DNA of 64,000 nt from Gordonibacter sp. An230 (GTDB lineage: Bacteria; Actinomycetota; Coriobacteriia; Coriobacteriales; Eggerthellaceae): assembly GCF_002159915.1 (NCBI RefSeq), contig NZ_NFJP01000002.1:62001-126000 (forward strand), given 5' to 3'. Made by a program: the position numbers and the translations under genes. This document shows positions 34,945 to 58,893 of this stretch, piece by piece. The notes beneath the pieces are model-generated. The model ran no database searches, was not told where the DNA came from, and saw nothing but the letters and a program-made list of their open reading frames with translations. Positions within the stretch are counted from its first letter, which is position 1. Every line of letters begins with the position of its first letter.

Positions 34945-36237
34945 TCAGCTGTTGGAGGCTCGCTTGAAGTCAGGCTTGATGATCTTGAAAATACCAGGTG
35001 AAACGATGTTTTTAAGATCATTCCCACCATTGCCCTCCGGGCGTTTTCCGTCGTTTTTCGGAGGTTTGGGACAATTTGGGCCAGTCGGGCGAGCCCTCTT
35101 GTTCATGGCGGCCACGGCGCGCTCGACCGACTCCTCCCCCGCCTGCACGTAGAACTCCGACGTGACCACCGGAGTGCTGTGCCCGAGCAGCTGCTGCACG
35201 TCGGCGATAGGCAGGCCGTCCTCGCGCACGAGCATGGTGCCGCAGCTGTGGCGCGTGTTCTTCAGCGGCATGTCCACCGGCAGCCCGGCGGCCTTCGTCA
35301 CCTCCCGCCAATGGCGCGACAGGTGGTCGGGGCGCATGCGCTTGCCGTCGTGCACCACCAACGGACCCGTGCCCTGCGCAAGGGGCCACACGATCTCCCC
35401 GGCCCATCGCGGGAGCAGCAGCGTGCGCGCGGAGGTGAACGACTTGGGCGGCTCGAAGTACCCCTCCCCGTCCATGTAGTGGTACGACCGCCAGACGCGG
35501 AACCGACCGAGAGCCTCCGGCGTCGAGACCGACCAGTCGATCTCCTCGCGGTCGATGGCGAGGATCTCGGAGCGCCGCAGCCCGACCGCGAAGGCGATGA
35601 CGACGGCGGCCAGCGCTTCGTCGCCTTCGAACGCGTCGATGTAGTCCCACATCTGGCTCGACTTCACGACGGGCTTCACGGCCTTCTCGGGCATGGGCTC
35701 GTCCACGGCGTCCGTGACCACGAACGTCGCGAGCTGCCACTTGACGGCGCGCCGGTAGCCCTGGCGCAGAACCTTGTACACCACCCTGCGCGCGCCTATC
35801 GTGGGGATCGTGGACAGCTGCGACTCGACGTAGTACGGCTTCAGGTCCGTGAGGCCTATGCTCCCGAACATGGGGACGATGCTGCGCCGGACCGTCTGCT
35901 CGTAGTTGCGGTACGTCTCGCGCGTGATCTTACCCTTGTCGCGAGGGCCGCCGTCGTAGGACCCCCGGCGCACGCGGCTCTTGGCCCAAGGGAGGTAGAC
36001 GCCGACGAAGTACTCGGCGACGGTCAGGCCCGTGGTCGGGACGAGGCCGCGCTCCACCTTCATGGCCATGGCGCGCAGGTTGGCCTCCGTCTCCGTCCCC
36101 TCGAAGGTCTCGTAGGGGCGCAGGCGCTTGCCCGTCACGGGATCGTGGCCGGCCGACACGCGGATCATCCAGCGCCTGCACTTCTCCCGTGGCACGCCGG
36201 GCTCGAGCGGCTCGACGCTGTACGGCTTGCGCTTCAT
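34945..36237 (-). CDS. int: Tyrosine-recombinase integrase
   Basis: A 430-residue phage integrase. An N-terminal arm-type and core-binding part (LTVAEYFVGVYLPWAKSRVR) precedes the catalytic domain. Catalytic residues are visible in AVGLRRSEIL (first Arg, about 221), NTRHSCGTML (second Arg about 329), LGHS (His 353) and SEFYVQ (nucleophile Tyr 363). The usual His three residues before the second Arg is Lys here. Its stop lies 6 bases from the tRNA fragment, as expected for an integrase next to its attachment site. A GTG four codons upstream is an alternative start. Confidence 0.95.
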   Translation of the reverse strand: MKRKPYSVEPLEPGVPREKCRRWMIRVSAGHDPVTGKRLRPYETFEGTETEANLRAMAMKVERGLVPTTGLTVAEYFVGVYLPWAKSRVRRGSYDGGPRDKGKITRETYRNYEQTVRRSIVPMFGSIGLTDLKPYYVESQLSTIPTIGARRVVYKVLRQGYRRAVKWQLATFVVTDAVDEPMPEKAVKPVVKSSQMWDYIDAFEGDEALAAVVIAFAVGLRRSEILAIDREEIDWSVSTPEALGRFRVWRSYHYMDGEGYFEPPKSFTSARTLLLPRWAGEIVWPLAQGTGPLVVHDGKRMRPDHLSRHWREVTKAAGLPVDMPLKNTRHSCGTMLVREDGLPIADVQQLLGHSTPVVTSEFYVQAGEESVERAVAAMNKRARPTGPNCPKPPKNDGKRPEGNGGNDLKNIVSPGIFKIIKPDFKRASNS

Positions 36238-36273
36238 GGTACAATGCACCTGCCTTTCCGTTCAGGTTAGGTT

Positions 36274-50270: not shown

Positions 50271-50932
50271 GGACGAGGTACACGCCCGAGCGCGTCGGGT
50301 TCCTGAGAGAGCATTCCCCCGGCCATTCAGCGCAAGAGTTGGCCGACATGTTCAATTCGAGGTTCGGCACGACTGCGAGCCGCAAGGCCATCTACATGGC
50401 GTGCAGGGCCAACGGAATAGGAGGGCTTGTCAACAAAGGACGCTTTCACAAGGGCATGACCGCGCCGAACAAGGGTAAGACGTGGGACGATCTGTACACG
50501 CCCGAGCAGCAGGAGCACATCCGAGCGCACCTATACAAGCCGGGGAACATGTCGGCAAAGGGTATGCGCTACCCCGTCGGTTCCGAGCGCGAGGGCAAGG
50601 ACGGTTACGTGTACGTGAAGGTGTGCGAGAGTTCGCGCGATGCGATGGCCACGGGTGCGAAGTCCTCGCAGTGCTGGCGCTTGAAGCATCACCTAGCGTG
50701 GGAGCGCGAGAACGGCAAGCCCGTCCCCGATGAATCCTTCATCGTGTTCGCGGACGGAGACAAGCGCAACTTCGCGCCGGAAAACCTCGTGTGCGTCAGC
50801 CGCGGCGACTACAACCTGCTGAACAACACGAAGATGCCCCGCTACTACGACGCGGAGTCCCTGAAGGCGTGCAGCGCGCTGGCGAAGCTTAAGAGGGCGG
50901 CGAAAGGGAGGGCGCGCGACCCGCGCGGGTGA
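50267..50932 (+). CDS. HNH endonuclease
   Basis: A 221-residue protein. An N-terminal helix-turn-helix for DNA binding (YTPERVGFLREHSPGHSAQE) precedes a C-terminal HNH_3 nuclease (WRLKHHLAWERENGKPVPDE, then VFADGDKRNFAPENLVCVSR). The GTG overlaps the previous stop as GTGA. HNH enzymes encoded next to the terminase are needed for DNA packaging in several cohesive-end phages, so this one may cooperate with the terminase; a free-standing homing-type endonuclease is the alternative. Confidence 0.85.
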   Translation: MRTRYTPERVGFLREHSPGHSAQELADMFNSRFGTTASRKAIYMACRANGIGGLVNKGRFHKGMTAPNKGKTWDDLYTPEQQEHIRAHLYKPGNMSAKGMRYPVGSEREGKDGYVYVKVCESSRDAMATGAKSSQCWRLKHHLAWERENGKPVPDESFIVFADGDKRNFAPENLVCVSRGDYNLLNNTKMPRYYDAESLKACSALAKLKRAAKGRARDPRG

Positions 50933-51045
50933 CACCTCCCCCATCATGCACCTCGCCGGCCGAGAGGGCCGGCCCCTCCTCGGGCGGCCCGCGGTCCCCC
51001 TGCCGCGGGCCGCCTCCCTGTGACGCGTCCCCCATCATTGGCGCC
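50929..51045. repeat. Structured spacer before terminase with direct repeats
   Basis: Two 19-base direct repeats (50929-50947 and 51020-51038) match at 17 positions and share CCCCCATCAT. Between them are a 7-bp stem GCCGGCC/GGCCGGC (50955-50973) and a perfect 12-bp stem GGCGGCCCGCGG/CCGCGGGCCGCC (50983-51014). The location between HNH and terminase genes is where cohesive-end sites are often found. The terminase frame is also open through here from a GTG at 50929. Confidence 0.55.
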
Positions 51046-52734
51046 ATGCCGAACCCCGAGAACATAGAGCCGCACAAGATCCGAACCGCGAGCGAAGCGC
51101 GGGAGAAGGGCCGCGCCGGCGGCCTGCGCTCGGGCGCGCGCCGCCGCGAGCTCGCCAGCCTGCGGAAGGCCGCCCGCGTGGTGCTGTCGATGGACGTGGT
51201 GAGCCCCGAGGCGCGGGAGAACCTGGCGACCCTCGGGCTGGATCCGGACGAGCGCACGAACGCCGCGCTCGTCACGGCGCGCATGGTGATGGCCGCCGCC
51301 GGCGGCGACGTCAAGGCGTACGAGGCCCTGTCGCGCAACATGGGCGCGCTGGACGATGCGGAGGCCGCCGAGGAGGCGGAGCGGGCCGCAGGGGCAGCCT
51401 CCGGGCGCGAGGGGGGCCTGCCCCTCATCGACACCGCGTCCCTCGTCCCCGGATGCTACGCCGACGCGTGGCGCGACATCATGGAGCACGGGCACTCGGA
51501 GTACATCGGCGAGAGCGGGCGCGGCTCGCTCAAGTCCACGGTGCTGCTGTCGCTCGCCCCCGTCGTCCTCATGCTCAAAGACCCGCGCCTGTGCGGCGTG
51601 GCGTTCCGGCGAGTCGGGAACACCCTGCGCGACTCGATCTTCGCGTCGCTCGTGAGCGCGATCCGCCGCCTGGGCGCGGAGTCCGAGTTCGAGTGGACGA
51701 GCTCCCCCATGCGCATCCTGCGCCCCTCCACCGGCCAGACGATCATGTTCCGCGGCCTGGATGACGAGGATAAGGCGAAGTCCCTCACGCTCGACAGCCC
51801 TGATCTCTACATCGGTTTCGCCTGCTGGGAGGAGTTCGATCAGATCAAGGGCGAGCGCTCCGTGCGCCGCGTCGAGCAGACCGTCAAGCGCGGCGCCGCC
51901 CCGCGCTTCTGGACGTTCCGCGCTTTCAACACCCCCGCCGACCCCGAGCATTGGGCGCACCTCTACGCGCAACGTATGGAGGAATCCGGCGACGCGCTTG
52001 TTCTGCGCAGCACGTATCTGGACGTGCCGCCCGAGTTCCTGGGCGAGGAGTTCTTCAAGGATGCCGAACGGCTCAAGTCCGTGAGTGAGGAGGCGTACCG
52101 CAACGAGTACCTCGGCGAGCCCGTGGGCCTCACCGGGCGCGTGTTTAATAACGTGGAAGCGGCGGAGGTGGCGCCGGAGGACGTGGCGGCCATGAAATGG
52201 GTGCGCCGAGGCATCGACTGGGGCTTCGCGAACGATCCGTTCGTGTGGCTCACGGTCGGCTACGACCGCAAGACCGCGACGCTGTACATAGCCGACGAGG
52301 TGTTCTCGACGGGCGTGCTCGACGCCGACAACGTGCGCGCCGTCAAGGAGCGCATGGCCGAGCACGACGAAAGCGGCGCGGTTCTGCGCCTGCCCGACGG
52401 CTCGCCTGCGTTCGAGCGCCGCAAGCCGGAGAACGAGTGCCGTGCGGACGCTGCCGCCCCCAAGGACATCGCCACGTGGCGGTCGCTGGGGATCGAGTGC
52501 GTGCCCGCCAGCAAGCGCGTGCCCGTGGCCGACGGCATCAGATGGCTCGCCAAGCGCCGCCGCATCGTGATCGACCGCAGGCGCTGCCCGCTCGCCTACC
52601 AGGAGTTCGCGCGGTACCGGGCACTGGAGGACGACGAGGGGCGCTTCCTGGGCTTTCCCGACAAGGACAACCATACCATCGACGCCGTGCGCTACGCGGC
52701 GTTCGACCTCATATCGGACCCCGACATAGCGTAA
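51046..52734 (+). CDS. terL: Terminase large subunit with N-terminal small-subunit-like extension
   Basis: A 562-residue packaging motor. Residues about 130-330 are the ATPase (Walker A-like GESGRGSLKST, Walker B IGFACWEEFDQ). Residues about 370-555 are the nuclease (RRGIDWGFANDPFVW ... DNHTIDAVRYAAF). The first 115 residues (ASEAREKGRAGGLRSGARRR ... AYEALSRNMGALDD) look like a separate small terminase-type/DNA-binding protein found upstream of terL in related phages, here in the same chain. No separate terS was seen. Start choice is uncertain (ATG without a clear ribosome site versus coupled GTG at 50929). Confidence 0.9.
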   Translation: MPNPENIEPHKIRTASEAREKGRAGGLRSGARRRELASLRKAARVVLSMDVVSPEARENLATLGLDPDERTNAALVTARMVMAAAGGDVKAYEALSRNMGALDDAEAAEEAERAAGAASGREGGLPLIDTASLVPGCYADAWRDIMEHGHSEYIGESGRGSLKSTVLLSLAPVVLMLKDPRLCGVAFRRVGNTLRDSIFASLVSAIRRLGAESEFEWTSSPMRILRPSTGQTIMFRGLDDEDKAKSLTLDSPDLYIGFACWEEFDQIKGERSVRRVEQTVKRGAAPRFWTFRAFNTPADPEHWAHLYAQRMEESGDALVLRSTYLDVPPEFLGEEFFKDAERLKSVSEEAYRNEYLGEPVGLTGRVFNNVEAAEVAPEDVAAMKWVRRGIDWGFANDPFVWLTVGYDRKTATLYIADEVFSTGVLDADNVRAVKERMAEHDESGAVLRLPDGSPAFERRKPENECRADAAAPKDIATWRSLGIECVPASKRVPVADGIRWLAKRRRIVIDRRRCPLAYQEFARYRALEDDEGRFLGFPDKDNHTIDAVRYAAFDLISDPDIA

Positions 52735-52744
52735 GGAGCAGATC

Positions 52745-54193
52745 ATGGTCGTGGCGATAGCAGAACGAAGCGGAGCAATGACGGACTGGCTCGCGTCGCT
52801 GGGGTATCCGGCGGCGAGCCTCGCGACCCCGATGGACGCGAAGATCCGCGAGTGGTGGGGCTACGTCAACGCCGAGGCGGAGTTCTACGTGCGCGAGGAG
52901 CGCGACCAGAACGGCAAGGTGGTGAAGGTGCCCGTGCGCAGCTGCACGCCCGCGGGCATGGTGTGCGAGGACATGGCCGGCCTCATCTACAACGAGCGCG
53001 CGAGCGTGAGCGTGCCCGACGACCCCGGCGCCGACGCATGGCTGCAGCAGTGGCTCGCCCGCATCATGTGGGCGGACCGCGCCCCGCTCGCCGTGGAGCG
53101 CATGTGCGAGACGGGCACGGCGGCCTGGGCGCTGCACATCCGCGGCGTGGCCGAGTACGGGCGCAGCGACTCGCTGGATGTCGTTCCCGTGCGCTACGAC
53201 GCGCGCCAGATAGTGCCGCTGTCGTGGGAAACCGACCGCTGCACCGACTGCGCCTTCGTCGCCGACGTGTGGCTGCGCGGCGAGCGGTGCACGCAGGTGG
53301 AGGTGCACCGCCCCCGGGACGACGGCGACTACGAGATCATGTGCGCGTTCTTCGGCGACGACGGGCGCCGCATCGAGCCGCCGGGCTACATCGGGGGAGG
53401 TTTCAGCATCAACACGGGGCAGACGACCCCCACGTTCGCGCTCATCCGCCTGGCCAAGGACAACCGCGTTTGGGAATACAGCCCGATGGGCGTGGCGCTG
53501 TTCGCCGACGCGATAGGCGCGCTCGAAACGGTGGACCTCGCCTTCGACATGGTGGGCAACGATCTCGTGCTGGGCCGCAAGATGCTCGCCCTGCCCGAGT
53601 CGATGATGCAGCGCGACGAGAGCGGCGTTCTGCGCCTGCCGATGCTGGAGGGCCAGCAGTTTTTTCTGAGCTTGCGCGACGGCAACGTGTTCGACGGCAA
53701 GCTGGGGGTCTTCGAGTACAACCCCGATCTGCGAGCCGACCAGGACCGCCAGATGCTCGCCACGGCGCTGCAGATGCTCGGCAAGCGCGTGGGCTTCGGA
53801 ATGAAGTGCTACGCGCTCGACAGCCAGGGCGGCATCACCACCGCTAAGCAGGTGGCCGCCGACAACGCCGAGATGATGCGCACGGTGCGTCGCCACGAGC
53901 ACTTGGTGCGCCCCGCCATCCAGCAGGTCATGGAGGCGGCGTGCGGCATCTACCGCAACCTGTCCACGCGCTGGGCGTCGCTGCCCGACGTGGCCGGCAT
54001 GGTCAGCGTGGAGATGGGCGACTCCATCGTGCAGGACGACGACAGCCTGCGCGAGCGCGACCGGGCCGACGTGGCCGCCGGGCTGCTCGAGCCGTGGCGC
54101 TACATGGTGCGCTGGCAGGGCTACACCGAGGACGAGGCGAAAGCCGCCCAAGGCTCCGACGCGTCCCTGCCCGACGTGCCGCCGGAGGCCTAG
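52745..54193 (+). CDS. Phage portal protein (SPP1 gp6-like)
   Basis: A 482-residue portal subunit that forms the DNA gate at one capsid vertex. The typical portal layout is seen: an N-terminal wing (MDAKIREWWGYVNAEAEFYV), CEDMAGLIYNERASV, a central NxDLVLGRKM region, and the C-terminal crown (DDDSLRERDRADVAAGLLEP). TAAGGAGCAGATC gives a good ribosome site. It follows terL by 10 bases. Confidence 0.9.
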   Translation: MVVAIAERSGAMTDWLASLGYPAASLATPMDAKIREWWGYVNAEAEFYVREERDQNGKVVKVPVRSCTPAGMVCEDMAGLIYNERASVSVPDDPGADAWLQQWLARIMWADRAPLAVERMCETGTAAWALHIRGVAEYGRSDSLDVVPVRYDARQIVPLSWETDRCTDCAFVADVWLRGERCTQVEVHRPRDDGDYEIMCAFFGDDGRRIEPPGYIGGGFSINTGQTTPTFALIRLAKDNRVWEYSPMGVALFADAIGALETVDLAFDMVGNDLVLGRKMLALPESMMQRDESGVLRLPMLEGQQFFLSLRDGNVFDGKLGVFEYNPDLRADQDRQMLATALQMLGKRVGFGMKCYALDSQGGITTAKQVAADNAEMMRTVRRHEHLVRPAIQQVMEAACGIYRNLSTRWASLPDVAGMVSVEMGDSIVQDDDSLRERDRADVAAGLLEPWRYMVRWQGYTEDEAKAAQGSDASLPDVPPEA

Positions 54194-54196
54194 CGC

Positions 54197-55942
54197 GTGG
54201 CGCTCACCGAGGCGGACATCCAGAAGCTGGCGGACTCCATCGTGCACGGCAGCGAGGAGCGCATGGTCGCCGAGCTGTTCTCGCGGCTGTGCGACTCCCT
54301 GGCCGACGGCGCGATGGGGCTGGCTGACGAGGCGGCGCTCGAACGGCTGGCCTCGGCCAACGCCGCCATGGCGAACGAGCTCATTGCCGAGTACGCCGGG
54401 ACCGTGGACGACGAGGTGCGCGGGCTCGTGGAGTCCGTCCTGATCGAATCGTCGGAGGCCGACGAGGCATCCCTGGCCGCCGTATACGGGCAGGATGCGG
54501 CGGCCAGGGCGGCGCTCGCCTTCGCAGGCGGGTACTCCGCGCACTTCGCCGAGATAGCCGCCCAGACGGCCTTGGGCGTGGCCGAGGTGATACGCCGCCA
54601 GAACCTGGCGATGACGGAGCGTGCCGAGCGGCTGTGGTACGAGGCCGCGGGCGAGGCCGTCGCGGCGTTCAACCAGGGGCTGCTTCCGCGCGAGGAGTGC
54701 GTGGCGCGCGCCGTGTCGCGGCTCATGGCCGAGGGCATGGAGACGGTGGACTACGCGAGCGGCGTGCGCAACCAGCTTGACGTGGCGGTGCGCCGCCACG
54801 TGGTCACGCAGGCGAGCCAGGCGGGCGGCAGGATGACGCTCGACCGCCTGGAGGCGTACGGCCACGAGCTCGTGGTCACGTCCGCCCACTACGGGGCGCG
54901 CCCCAGCCACGCCGAGTGGCAGGGGAAGCCGTGCGCGATCCATGGGGCGGCAGAGGTGGACGGCGTGCGCTACCCCGGCCTGGCCGAGCTCACGGGCTAC
55001 GGCACCGTGGGCGGCCTCAAGGGCGCGAACTGCCGCCACTCAATCAACCCCTACTATCCCGGCATCACGAAGCTCCCCGCGAGGGAGTGGCCCGAGCACG
55101 AGGCGAGGTTCGGCATGAGCTCCGAGCGGTACTACGAGGCCACGCAGCGCCAGCGCGAGCTGGAGCGCCGCGTCCGCAAGACCAAGCGCGAGGTGTCGGG
55201 CATGGAACGGGCGGGCATCGGGTTCGAATCGCCCACGTACGTGCAGAAGCGACTCGTGCTCGGCCGCCAGCAGGCCGCGCTGCGCTCGCACTGCGCCGAC
55301 AAGGGATTCGTGCGCCAGTACGCGAGGGAGCGGGCCTACGGCGTGGGGGCGCAGCCCAGGGCGCTCAGAAGCGCGTCGACGAAGCTGTACGTGAGTCAGA
55401 TGCACGGTCGCGCGAATACCAAGATCGATCGGTTTGTCCCCTGCCTGCTTGACACCAAAACCGGCGAGCTCGTGGACACCCAGGTCTACAAGCTCACGAC
55501 AAGAAGCCAGCTAAAAGGGTACAACTCCAAAACAGGCTGGGACATCAACTGGGAGAAGGCGCCGAAAGGGGTCGACGTGTACGGTCTCACGATCAAGGGG
55601 CAAAGCGAGCTGCAGGGGCTCATCGCGCTCAGGGAAGACCGGGACGCCCAGGCGGTCTACTTACACTATGCGAAAACCGCGCCCAGAAACGACAAGCATG
55701 CGACGGGCAAGCAGGATTACGAAGGGGTCGGAGGGCACCTTTTCGCGCTCGCCGTCGAAATATCCGAAAAGGCCGGGTTTGGCGGCTACCTCTACGGGTT
55801 CGCCGAGGACGCCAAACTCGAGCGGCACTACATCGAGAAGTTAGGGGCAACGCACCTGGGGATTCTGCACCCCTACCATTTCGAAATCGACGAACGTGCG
55901 GCACGAAGGCTGCTCAAGGAGTATAATTACGAATGGAAATGA
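54197..55942 (+). CDS. MuF-type minor capsid protein with C-terminal GNAT-like domain
   Basis: A 581-residue protein. Residues about 1-395 are a phage minor capsid 2/MuF head-morphogenesis protein (helical N-terminus, then HELVVTSAHYGARPSHAEWQ and NCRHSINPYYPGITK). From about residue 411 the protein changes to a module with lower GC and different codon use. GVGGHLFALAVEISEKAGFG, then LYGFAEDAKLERHYIEKLGA matches the CoA-binding helix and last strand of GNAT acetyltransferases. MuF proteins are known to carry toxin-like tails in some phages; an acetyltransferase effector is an inference. A tiny gene overlaps its end. Confidence 0.82.
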   Translation: MALTEADIQKLADSIVHGSEERMVAELFSRLCDSLADGAMGLADEAALERLASANAAMANELIAEYAGTVDDEVRGLVESVLIESSEADEASLAAVYGQDAAARAALAFAGGYSAHFAEIAAQTALGVAEVIRRQNLAMTERAERLWYEAAGEAVAAFNQGLLPREECVARAVSRLMAEGMETVDYASGVRNQLDVAVRRHVVTQASQAGGRMTLDRLEAYGHELVVTSAHYGARPSHAEWQGKPCAIHGAAEVDGVRYPGLAELTGYGTVGGLKGANCRHSINPYYPGITKLPAREWPEHEARFGMSSERYYEATQRQRELERRVRKTKREVSGMERAGIGFESPTYVQKRLVLGRQQAALRSHCADKGFVRQYARERAYGVGAQPRALRSASTKLYVSQMHGRANTKIDRFVPCLLDTKTGELVDTQVYKLTTRSQLKGYNSKTGWDINWEKAPKGVDVYGLTIKGQSELQGLIALREDRDAQAVYLHYAKTAPRNDKHATGKQDYEGVGGHLFALAVEISEKAGFGGYLYGFAEDAKLERHYIEKLGATHLGILHPYHFEIDERAARRLLKEYNYEWK

Positions 55943-56127: not shown

Positions 56128-56189
56128 CCGCGGGTCGACCGATCGGAAACCGCCCGCCCCTGTCCGTTGAAAACGTGCTACAATAAAGC

Positions 56190-56270
56190 CAATCGGTGCC
56201 CCGCCTACCCGGGCAGCATCGGTTACTTAACGAAGCCGGTTATCCTTGCAGGGGCGACCGGCTTTCTTCA
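56190..56270 (+). ncRNA. Antisense antitoxin RNA of a type I toxin-antitoxin locus (RatA-like)
   Basis: An extended -10 promoter TGCTACAAT (56176-56184) is followed by about 80 bases of unique sequence and a terminator stem AAGCCGGT (56233-56240) / ACCGGCTT (56257-56264) with a T-rich tail. Transcription converges on the toxin gene at 56289-56372, so the RNA would pair with the 3' part of the toxin mRNA, as RatA does with txpA. It is not coding. Confidence 0.7.
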
Positions 56271-56288
56271 TTCTCCCAACACCGTCCG

Positions 56289-56372
56289 TCATTCATCTTT
56301 CCTCGTCAGGTTGACGATTCCGACGACCACCAACAGCAACTCGCATACCGCTATGACTGTCTGCGCGTCCAT
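56289..56372 (-). CDS. Holin-like type I toxin peptide
   Basis: A 27-residue hydrophobic peptide, MDAQTVIAVCELLLVVVGIV followed by a basic/acidic tail NLTRKDE: a single membrane helix as in TxpA/Fst-like or holin-like toxins. GAAAGGAG six bases before the ATG is a near-perfect ribosome site. A TACAAT box (56423-56428, minus strand) lies about 50 bases upstream. It is opposite to all neighbouring phage genes and convergent with a small antisense RNA. Confidence 0.72.
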   Translation of the reverse strand: MDAQTVIAVCELLLVVVGIVNLTRKDE

Positions 56373-56477
56373 GAGCCTCTCCTTTCGGATGCCGCCCAGG
56401 GACATGACGGAGCACCGCGCCCATTGTAACGCATGGCGGCGCTCGGACGATCGGCGTTCCGCGCCCGACGGCGCCGG

Positions 56478-57291
56478 GTGACGCGCGCGGGAAGATGTCC
56501 CTCGCAAGCGAAGCGAGGAGGAGCCGTGTTCGAGAAGATCGCCACCCCCCCCCCCGGCGACCTGCAGGATAGCCTGCGGCGACGCCGTCAGGGTCCTTAG
56601 CAAGCTGCCCTCGGGCGGCATCGACATGCTGCTGACCGACCCGCCGTACTGCTCCGGCGGCCTGACCAGGACGGAGCGAAAGGCGCCGCCCTCGAGGAAG
56701 TACCAGCAGGACGGATACGCGAAGTTCGCCGACTTCCCGGGGGATGCCAGAGACGAGCGTAGCTTCCTCAGGTGGTGCGCGCTGTGGATGTCGGAGTGCT
56801 GGCGGATACTGCCGCCGGGCTCGTCCGCCGTCGTATTCAGCGACTGGCGCCAGCTCGCGAACACGTGCGACGCGCTACAGATCGCGGGGTTCGTGTTCAG
56901 AGGGATAGTCCCGTGGATCAAGACGGCGGCCCGCCCGCAGCCGAACAGCTTCAAGGCGGACTGCGAGTTCGCGGTCTGGGCCACCAAGGGCGAGATCGAC
57001 CGCAAGCCGACGCCGGGGGCCAAGTACCTGCCAGGGCATTACGAGCACGCGGCGCCTCGCGAGCGGGAGCACATGAACCAGAAGCCCGTGGCCCTCATGC
57101 GCGACCTCATGGCCATAGCGCCGGAGGGCGGCGTTGTGCTCGACCCTTTCATGGGCAGCGGTTCCACGGGCGTCGCGTGCGCCGAGACGGGCCGCTCGTT
57201 CGTCGGCGTCGAGATGACCGAGCACTACTACAGCGTGGCGCGCGCCCGAATCGCCGAGACGTACGCCCGCGGGTGACGCGCGTCGCATCAT
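56478..57291. repeat. Direct repeats flanking the methyltransferase gene
   Basis: GTGACGCGCG occurs at 56478-56487, just before the methyltransferase region, and at 57273-57282, across its stop codon. The right copy continues into TCGCATCAT and so resembles the two 19-base repeats at 50929 and 51020. Such repeats around a lone accessory gene suggest insertion as a unit (moron). Confidence 0.5.
56526..57276 (+). pseudogene. DNA (adenine/cytosine-N4) methyltransferase, out of frame at a C11 tract (predicted phase-variable)
   Basis: Beta-type amino-methyltransferase with DPPY (motif IV) near the start and DPFMGSGSTGVACAETGRSF (motif I, AdoMet binding) near the end. The catalytic frame has a typical family beginning CRIACGDAVRVLSKLP upstream of its first ATG (56626), so 56626 is too late. 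A GTG at 56526 with GAGGAGGAGCC upstream reads MFEKIATPPP, then meets 11 cytosines (56545-56555) and stops after 24 codons. Loss of one C would join it to the methyltransferase frame (249 residues). So the gene is off as sequenced, or the run is miscounted. Confidence 0.8.
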
Positions 57292-57401: not shown

Positions 57402-58004
57402 ATGGAAAACGGCGAAGGTCAGAATCAGCAGCAGGAGCTGGCGAAGCCGCAACAGGGCGATGCCCAGCAGCGGGAGCCGAAGGGCGGCCCCGACCTCGGC
57501 CAAGCGAACAAGCGCCTCAACGAGGAGAACAAGGCCCTCAAGGCGAGCATCGAGCAGATGCAGGCGCAGATGGGCGAACTCACCAAGAAGTTCGAGGGCG
57601 CCAAGACCGCCGAAGACGTAGCGGCCGCGGTGGAGGCGGCCAAGAAGGAGGCCGAGGAGGCCAGCGCCAAGACGAAGGCCGACTACGACGCGCGCATGAA
57701 GTCGCTGACCGTGCAGAACGCGCTCATTCAGGCCGGATGCTCCGACACCGTGGCGCTCATGGCCCACATCGACATGGAGAAGGTCGAAGTTGCGAGCGAC
57801 GGGCACATCAGCGGCATGGACCCGGCGAAGCTCAAGGAATCGTATCCGTACCTGTTCCAGTCCGCCAACACCCAGCAGACGGTCAGCACTGCGGCCGCTC
57901 CGGGCGGGGCAGGAAAGAAGATGACCAAAGAGGAGATCGTCGGGGTGAAGGACCCGGCGGAGCGCCGACGTCTCATCGCCGAGAACATGGACCTCTTCCA
58001 GTAG
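57402..58004 (+). CDS. Phage scaffolding protein
   Basis: A 200-residue protein, very rich in Glu, Lys, Gln and Ala, with a central coiled coil (KRLNEENKALKASIEQMQAQ). The end MTKEEIVGVKDPAERRRLIA then NMDLFQ is typical of scaffolding proteins of Gram-positive phages. It lies directly before the major capsid gene, as expected for a capsid assembly scaffold. GGAGG lies six bases before the ATG. The 125 bases upstream hold no gene. Confidence 0.85.
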   Translation: MENGEGQNQQQELAKPQQGDAQQREPKGGPDLGQANKRLNEENKALKASIEQMQAQMGELTKKFEGAKTAEDVAAAVEAAKKEAEEASAKTKADYDARMKSLTVQNALIQAGCSDTVALMAHIDMEKVEVASDGHISGMDPAKLKESYPYLFQSANTQQTVSTAAAPGGAGKKMTKEEIVGVKDPAERRRLIAENMDLFQ

Positions 58005-58017
58005 AAAGGAGCCAGGA

Positions 58018-58893
58018 ATGGCAGCGGACCCCAACCAGATGAAGGCGGCCGATTTCGCCAAGGTCAGCGAAATCGATTTCGTCACCCAGTTCAACAAGGG
58101 CATCAAGGTGCTCCAGGAAATCCTGGGCATCACGCGCAAAGTCGAGAAAGTCCCCGGCCAGGTCATCAAGACCTACAAGGTCACGGGCACGCTGGAGAGC
58201 GGCGAGGTGGCCGAAGGCGAGACCATCCCCCTGTCCAAGTACAAGACCGAGGTGGCGGGGCTGTTCGAGCTCACGGTCAAGAAATGGCGCAAGCAGACCA
58301 CGCTCGAGGCCATCAACGACAAGGGCTACGAGCAAGCTGTGACCGACACCGACGACAGGATGATCAACGACATCCAGGGCGGCATCCGCAAGGACTTCTT
58401 CGAGTCCATGGCGACCGGCACCGGCGAGGCGTCCGGCGAGGGCCTGCAGGGCGCCCTCGCCCAGACCTGGGGCCAGCTCAAGGTGTTGTTCGAGGATTAC
58501 GACGTGGCCGATTCCGACTTCCTGTACATGGTCAACCCGCTCGACATCGCGGGCTACCTGGAGAAGAAGGACGTGACCGTGCAGACCGCGTTCGGCATGA
58601 CGTACGTCGAGAGCTTCCTCAGCCTCTACAACGTGCTGGTGCACACCGGCGTCCCGCAGGGCACCGTGTACGGCACCGCGAAGGGCAACCTCATCCTGTA
58701 CTACGCGAACCCTCGCAACGCCGACGTCGCCAAGGCGTTCGACTTCACGACCGACGCCACCGGCTACGTGGGCGTGCACCACGAGACGACCTACGACAAC
58801 TTGACCACGGACACCGTGGCCATCTGCGGCATGGCGCTGTACGCCGAGCTCATCGACCGCATCGTGAAGGGCACAATCGAGGACCCTCGATAG
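58018..58893 (+). CDS. Major capsid protein
   Basis: A 291-residue HK97-fold coat protein. Its core reads IDFVTQFNKGIKVLQEILGI, EGETIPLSKYKTEVAGLFEL and DFFESMATGTGEASGEGLQG, followed by YVGVHHETTYDNLTTDTVAI near the C-terminus. AAAGGAGCCAGGA precedes the ATG. Position after the scaffold gene supports the call. A second frame is open through its 3' third and continues into the next gene. Confidence 0.88.
   Translation: MAADPNQMKAADFAKVSEIDFVTQFNKGIKVLQEILGITRKVEKVPGQVIKTYKVTGTLESGEVAEGETIPLSKYKTEVAGLFELTVKKWRKQTTLEAINDKGYEQAVTDTDDRMINDIQGGIRKDFFESMATGTGEASGEGLQGALAQTWGQLKVLFEDYDVADSDFLYMVNPLDIAGYLEKKDVTVQTAFGMTYVESFLSLYNVLVHTGVPQGTVYGTAKGNLILYYANPRNADVAKAFDFTTDATGYVGVHHETTYDNLTTDTVAICGMALYAELIDRIVKGTIEDPR

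Follow-up and report, generated by a model that had tools for sequence, protein, structure and literature searches.

A homopolymeric C tract in a prophage methyltransferase locus of Gordonibacter: a candidate slippage switch

Is the DNA methyltransferase encoded by a prophage of Gordonibacter sp. An230 switched on and off by slippage in a homopolymeric tract, or has a dispensable gene simply been interrupted there? The window, i.e., the whole stretch of 64,000 nucleotides analysed here, contains a run of eleven cytosines (C11) at positions 56545-56555, and such a tract is expected 0.05 times in window shuffles. An earlier note, made from the sequence alone, had proposed that a GTG with a strong ribosome site opens a 24-codon frame that runs into the C's and stops, that the methyltransferase frame lies one base away, and that other tract lengths would join the two.

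A split reading frame at the tract

The locus comprises the following features.

56495-56497, plus strand: a second possible start, an ATG with a weak ribosome site that shares the enzyme frame at C9 or C12 only
56516-56521, plus strand: AGGAGG, a Shine-Dalgarno-like sequence 4 nt 5' of GTG 56526
56526-56600, plus strand: upstream 24-codon frame, translated as VFEKIATPPPGDLQDSLRRRRQGP and followed by a stop; its FEKIA matches the in-frame FEQVA N-terminus of the homologue L057
56545-56555, plus strand: C11, proposed to act as a slippage switch, with C11 as the OFF state and the frames joined at C10 or C13
56551-57276, plus strand: methyltransferase frame (N6_N4_Mtase, PF01555; phrog_67), with DPPY first and FMGSGST last, which is the beta-class order
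56626-56628, plus strand: first in-frame ATG 3' of the tract (M26 of the translated protein, P0001)

Translation from GTG 56526 passes through the tract and ends at TAG, as the earlier note had it. The enzyme frame is indeed one base off this register; it stays free of stops from 56482 up to the one at 57276 and reads PPATCRIACGDAVRVLSKLPSGGIDMLLTDPPY... 3' of the tract, where its sequence includes TCRIACGDAVRVLSKLPSGGIDMLLTDPPY...LDPFMGSGSTG.... The frame arithmetic is also right: a tract of C10 or C13 fuses GTG 56526 to the enzyme frame, giving 249 residues, and a tract of C9 or C12 joins the enzyme frame to ATG 56495, the frame of which is open to the tract. Initiation at this ATG, however, is doubtful, because GGGAAG lies directly against it and makes a poor ribosome site. 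A simple scan found no sigma-70-like promoter or terminator near the locus, and an Rfam search around it gave no match.

The in-frame codons leading from the tract to the GD motif are CCC CCG GCG ACC TGC AGG ATA GCC TGC GGC GAC, i.e., the enzyme frame has no ATG, GTG or TTG in this interval. Of the homologues whose tract differs, L057 is the closest; it is 68% identical, resides in a prophage where terminase and portal genes adjoin it, and carries the N-terminus MTAFEQVAHGCEIARGD in one frame (MTAFEQVA..., compared to MFEKIAT... at the window locus). In the single-frame stretch MTAFEQVAHGCEIARGDSLQVL of this homologue, FEQVA and IARGD align to FEKIA, before C11, and to IACGD, after C11, respectively, so that homology places both sides of the tract in one protein. 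Since there is no start between the tract and the core, and since the N-terminus of L057 is read in a single frame, the comparison indicates one methyltransferase gene split exactly at the tract, with the 24-codon frame as its predicted true 5' end. The locus has the makings of a contingency gene, that is, a slippery repeat (C11) within the frame, the length of which sets ON or OFF.

The affiliation of the enzyme is clear. The Pfam N6_N4_Mtase match (PF01555) has an E-value of 5.7e-30 and 105.4 bits, compared to a curated cut-off of 26.7, and starts at residue 24; the PHROG assignment is phrog_67 (8e-62). The motifs DPPY (residues 30-33) and FMGSGST (residues 200-206) follow each other as they do in beta-class methyltransferases. 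The AlphaFold2 model has a mean pLDDT of 89.9, with a confident strand at residues 5-9 and a confident helix at residues 12-16, and residues I7, D11 and L16 are invariant across four close homologues. The solved folds closest to the model are those of CcrM (6pbd) and M1.HpyAVI (5hfj), both beta-class N6-adenine methyltransferases with 23-26% identity to the window enzyme; the enzyme may, however, act on N4-cytosine instead. The best 25 of 57 PADLOC matches included 22 type II methyltransferases, 2 orphan methyltransferases and one mad2; none of these 25 was PglX or BrxX, and the genes beside the methyltransferase are phage structural genes and not Pgl or BREX partners.

The 241 codons 3' of the tract are open, and the catalytic motifs are intact. 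The dN/dS ratios for the comparison with L057 are ~0.27 and 0.51, on either side of the tract that L057 itself carries, where synonymous sites in the first part are near saturation. Such values point to protein constraint since the divergence from L057, and not to constraint on the present state. Judging from the long open frame, the intact motifs, the low dN/dS and the intact prophage neighbours, the methyltransferase does not look like a decayed gene.

The prophage and tracts in related phage enzymes

A prophage location had been claimed for this gene, and the surrounding sequence bears it out. Ten proteins in the region 34945-58893, all with open frames, have PHROG matches (integrase, repressor, Sak4-like annealing protein, helicase, primase, terminase, portal, minor head, scaffold and major head), i.e., genes for integration, repression, replication, packaging and head formation are found around the methyltransferase. 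Those needed here are as follows.

34945-36249, minus strand: prophage integrase (phrog_1, 1.1e-28)
50929-54193, plus strand: terminase large subunit and portal protein, in the same prophage as the methyltransferase (phrog_3717, phrog_533)
54197-55942, plus strand: minor head / head morphogenesis protein, the upstream neighbour (phrog_581, 9.4e-63)
57402-58004, plus strand: head scaffolding protein, the downstream neighbour (phrog_194, 7.5e-22)
58018-58893, plus strand: major head protein (phrog_544, 1.3e-49)

The prophage is apparently intact, and the methyltransferase gene is located between the minor head protein and scaffold genes, on the same strand. A phasevarion would have a type III Mod or a type I HsdS with a nuclease partner; the neighbours found here are head proteins. 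Placed as it is among late head genes, the gene is more naturally read as one expressed late, in lytic growth, with a product that methylates the DNA of virions, and judging from gene position this is most likely; the switching of host methylation that the earlier note had envisaged is less supported.

Upstream of the methyltransferase, after the minor head gene, lies a small element (56187-56418) with 74-84% identity to sequences in two other genomes (G005 and G006) and a partial match in a third (G002). Its minus-strand ORF (56289-56372) encodes a hydrophobic peptide of 27 residues, MDAQTVIAVCELLLVVVGIVNLTRKDE, with the relatives MDTQTVIALCELLLVVIGIVGLARKDE and MDTQTVIAVCEILLVIIGIIGLVLVRRE. 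Pfam and Rfam searches with this element gave no match; in appearance it resembles Fst-like type I toxin-antitoxin units.

Similar runs are found among other Coriobacteriia prophage enzymes: in phage METHYLTRANSFERASES, we observed a frame broken at C9, a frame broken at G10, and two open frames with G9. The first is L057, which is broken mid-gene. The second is a different methyltransferase, in Adlercreutzia caecimuris B7 (L165; NZ_KE159646.1, about 1782133-1783153), broken exactly at its G10; endolysin and reverse transcriptase genes adjoin it, the latter possibly a part of a diversity-generating element. The open frames, each with G9 in frame, belong to another locus of A. caecimuris B7 (L153) and to a locus of genome G163 (L258), the latter adjoining HNH and terminase small subunit genes. 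Thus, phage genes are neighbours in L057, L165 and L258. In a metagenome virus (L295), the methyltransferase is likewise broken at G10. Three virus records from Eggerthellaceae-like phages contain this gene family (the window copy, L057 and L046), and in each the only G/C run of at least 9 bases is in the methyltransferase gene or at its end.

We compared the frequency of such runs in and around the methyltransferase genes to that in the flanking sequence. In 40 Eggerthellaceae regions with PF01555, there are 5 runs in 45.7 kb of gene +-200 bases and 5 in 293 kb of flanks; thus, 5 of 10 runs fall in 13% of the sequence (P=0.006, or P=0.02 without the window locus). It should be kept in mind that this test is small, that the pattern was noticed before being tested, and that two of the five gene-side hits are 3'-end tracts, maybe overgrown ribosome sites. 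For 66 other phage-type enzymes, we counted 2 runs in 52 kb of gene +-60 bases, compared to 4 in the 336 kb that flank them. The recurrence of tracts in prophage methyltransferases looks real, albeit with small numbers.

The position of the tract differs among orthologues: it is at the 5' end in the window copy, in the middle in L057, and at the 3' end in L046, L093 and the copy in genome G114, and there is none in the A. caecimuris orthologue L092. Since orthologues place the tract differently, there is no single conserved switch; the differing position speaks for tracts that arose repeatedly and makes programmed recoding less plausible; neutral growth of runs is compatible with it, too. The 3'-end tracts (G9 or G10) in L046, in L093 and in the copy from G114 were excluded as frame switches because they overlap with, and form part of, the ribosome site from which the following gene is translated. 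Such an overlap of G9-G10 runs is seen at L169:5407, L046:3708 and L093, where a length change could alter translation of the next gene.

Slippage switch and competing explanations

To us, the probable explanation of the locus is that a methyltransferase carried by the phage varies in phase through slipped-strand mispairing and is OFF in the assembly. In the proposed mechanism, an orphan methyltransferase gene carried by the phage has its 5' end, from GTG 56526, and its body out of register via C11, and slipped-strand mispairing in replication would add or remove C's. C10 or C13 would be the ON state, with the 249-residue enzyme, and C11 the OFF state, with a 24-residue peptide, as assembled. 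The enzyme would be made in lytic growth and would methylate phage DNA before packaging; ON and OFF phages would then yield differently marked virions. Here, we infer reversibility at the window tract, the timing of expression, the activity of the enzyme and the benefit. Recurrence at similar runs in related phages suggests, at the sequence level, a recurring on/off switch and not a one-off mistake.

The claim of a tract-switched methyltransferase is upheld in part: the gene is split at the tract, relatives and host genes are arranged alike, and at a PucR-type regulator of the host (see below) tract length and frame differ between sister species. On the other side, no variation in tract length was seen at the window locus, where the sole other copy found is identical. 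This copy (L045, in IMG/VR) shows no difference over 6723 bases and is probably the same assembly as the window, not an independent confirmation. Searches of IMG/VR with variable-gap patterns for other tract lengths, at five loci, returned only the source records or nothing. When 11 nearby genomes were searched at the DNA level, only the small upstream element was matched; a further copy of the methyltransferase was not found in them.

The competing explanation that survives best is that of a slippage pseudogene, in which a tract grew neutrally in a dispensable phage gene and one slip killed that gene, leaving it mutable, with switching that serves no function. We regard this as unlikely, although two observations speak for it. 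The tract position is not common to orthologues, and long G/C runs seem to arise easily in the host genome, where 153 runs of at least 9 bases were counted versus ~140 expected by a simple independent-base estimate (0 to 153 runs per genome across the sampled family members), i.e., near the level set by composition only. We sampled 93 of the host runs and classed them according to how codons are used in their 120-base flanks: 56 were non-coding, 28 were at gene edges, 2 lay between opposite genes, 3 had shifted frames, 1 was in frame, and 3 were at contig ends; the window C11 is classed as an edge in this scheme, as most of the sequence on its upstream side is intergenic. Six of the 93 runs lay between two coding flanks, versus 38.5% in-frame coding at random places (P about 1e-12). 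Therefore, runs of at least 9 G/C are common in the host genome but kept out of genes, and because of this avoidance a tract inside a gene is unusual there. The pseudogene explanation has to accommodate this strong exclusion together with the recurrence in prophage methyltransferases; furthermore, coding on both sides of the tract is intact with a low dN/dS, and two such tracts (L153 and L258) are open.

Another explanation is an assembly error, the true tract being C10 and the gene constantly ON. The assembly is a draft of 73 contigs with poly-G artefacts: a 73-base poly-G run ends contig C4 (positions 118631-118703) and is probably a sequencing or assembly artefact. In a published case, the reference G-tract was one off from the culture majority, and drafts can misjudge such tracts (PMC9187656). 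Nevertheless, we consider an error improbable, since comparable tract breaks are found in genomes that were each sequenced on their own (A. caecimuris B7, L057 and L295). Moreover, a true C10 would still be a long slippery coding tract, so that an error would change the assembled state more than the mechanism.

Recoding, i.e., ribosomal +1 frameshifting or RNA-polymerase slippage on C11, would give a steady low amount of the enzyme from unchanged DNA. In principle, C11 is slippery for polymerases and ribosomes, and the two frames overlap across the tract; however, programmed sites are conserved in place, whereas the orthologues have the tract elsewhere or none, and a +1 shift would be needed, whereas -1 is the common kind. 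We consider recoding very unlikely. Translation of the enzyme from the internal ATG 56626, with the tract as an irrelevant leader, is scarcely credible: this ATG is in frame and the Pfam match begins at residue 24, but the product would lose the predicted strand 5-9, helix 12-16 and the conserved I7, D11 and L16, and no ribosome site is evident before 56626.

Several described systems can be set beside the proposed switch. One is the phage growth limitation enzyme PglX, which is much larger than the window methyltransferase. The Streptomyces coelicolor system resembles the window gene in that an actinobacterial, phage-linked methyltransferase is switched by a coding G/C tract, in this case a G8 tract that switches at 1e-2 to 1e-4; in contrast, it is a chromosomal defence system with partner genes, whereas the window gene is a small orphan on the phage itself (PMC4365076). 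Mod phasevarions of Helicobacter, Neisseria, Haemophilus and Moraxella also have simple repeats in a methyltransferase frame that set ON or OFF (PMC13076061); however, Mod proteins are type III restriction-modification subunits beside res, whereas the window enzyme is small, lies between phage head genes and has no adjoining nuclease gene. In the gut actinobacterium Bifidobacterium breve, sortase pilus genes are split or fused by G-tract slippage: a tract of G10-G11 splits the gene into two frames, with a one-base fusion as in the window, and G11/G12 mixtures were found (PMC9187656). That switch affects a chromosomal surface pilus gene and its variation has been measured; the window gene is a phage-borne methyltransferase. 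The orphan methyltransferases of Gordonia, Mycobacterium and Propionibacterium phages in phrog_67 are of the same protein family, phage-borne and solitary, and PamA of a Staphylococcus aureus prophage is a phage-encoded orphan methyltransferase, as cited in PMC13076061. Among related phage-encoded orphan methyltransferases, a G/C run of at least 9 bases occurs in the gene or within 60 bases of it in only 2 of 66.

Searches of open-access papers yielded no matching description of a phase-variable prophage methyltransferase, or of homopolymer switching in Eggerthella or Coriobacteriia; the Coriobacteriia phase variation in the papers found is confined to inversions, tyrosine recombinases and diversity-generating elements (PMC13174815, PMC8778435). 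The prophage-borne, recurrent Coriobacteriia form seems to be undescribed in the papers searched. As a tentative generalization, possible but not one we would lean on, temperate phages of Coriobacteriia may repeatedly carry late-module orphan methyltransferases under poly-G/C slippage, such that one lysogen lineage releases both methylated and unmethylated virions, bet-hedging against restriction enzymes and methyl-targeting nucleases. Switchable methyltransferases are known mainly from bacterial genes that alter the host methylome or defence; if the generalization is true, phages would vary how their own DNA is marked and so pass differing host restriction, and simple-repeat phase variation would be shown in a gut class, Coriobacteriia.

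Host genes split at tracts

The three sampled host runs with shifted frames are in a surface protein gene (G10; L064), a LuxR-type regulator gene (C11; L197) and a PucR-type regulator gene (G10; L211). The PucR-type gene (L211:1502; contig C19, 22503) is broken at its G10, with the Pfam domains PucR and HTH_30 on opposite sides. The orthologue in a sister species (L342, genome G001) is open, with 387 residues, 93% identity and G12, and the tract flanks are nearly identical between the two genomes. Because the G10 gene is broken and the G12 gene is open, tracts in the genus do, as seen at this one gene, change length and switch the frame, which makes the PucR-type gene a clear candidate for a phase-variable regulator of the host.

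The LuxR-type membrane regulator (L197:675; contig C12, 181574) carries C11 in a linker before the DNA-binding domain, which Pfam places 3' of the tract. The C11 is kept in both species (L197 and L349), the flanks having diverged, and is out of frame in both by our reading. The third gene (L064:1500; contig C1, 109231) encodes a secreted leucine-rich-type surface protein; its frame is interrupted by G10 directly behind the signal peptide, with the Pfam LRR domain 3' of the tract. These regulators and the surface protein seem to be switched like the methyltransferase. Most G/C runs of at least 9 bases are intergenic or at gene edges, e.g., a G12 immediately in front of the likely start of a LysR-type gene (L001), and promoter-located switching is possible at intergenic host runs.
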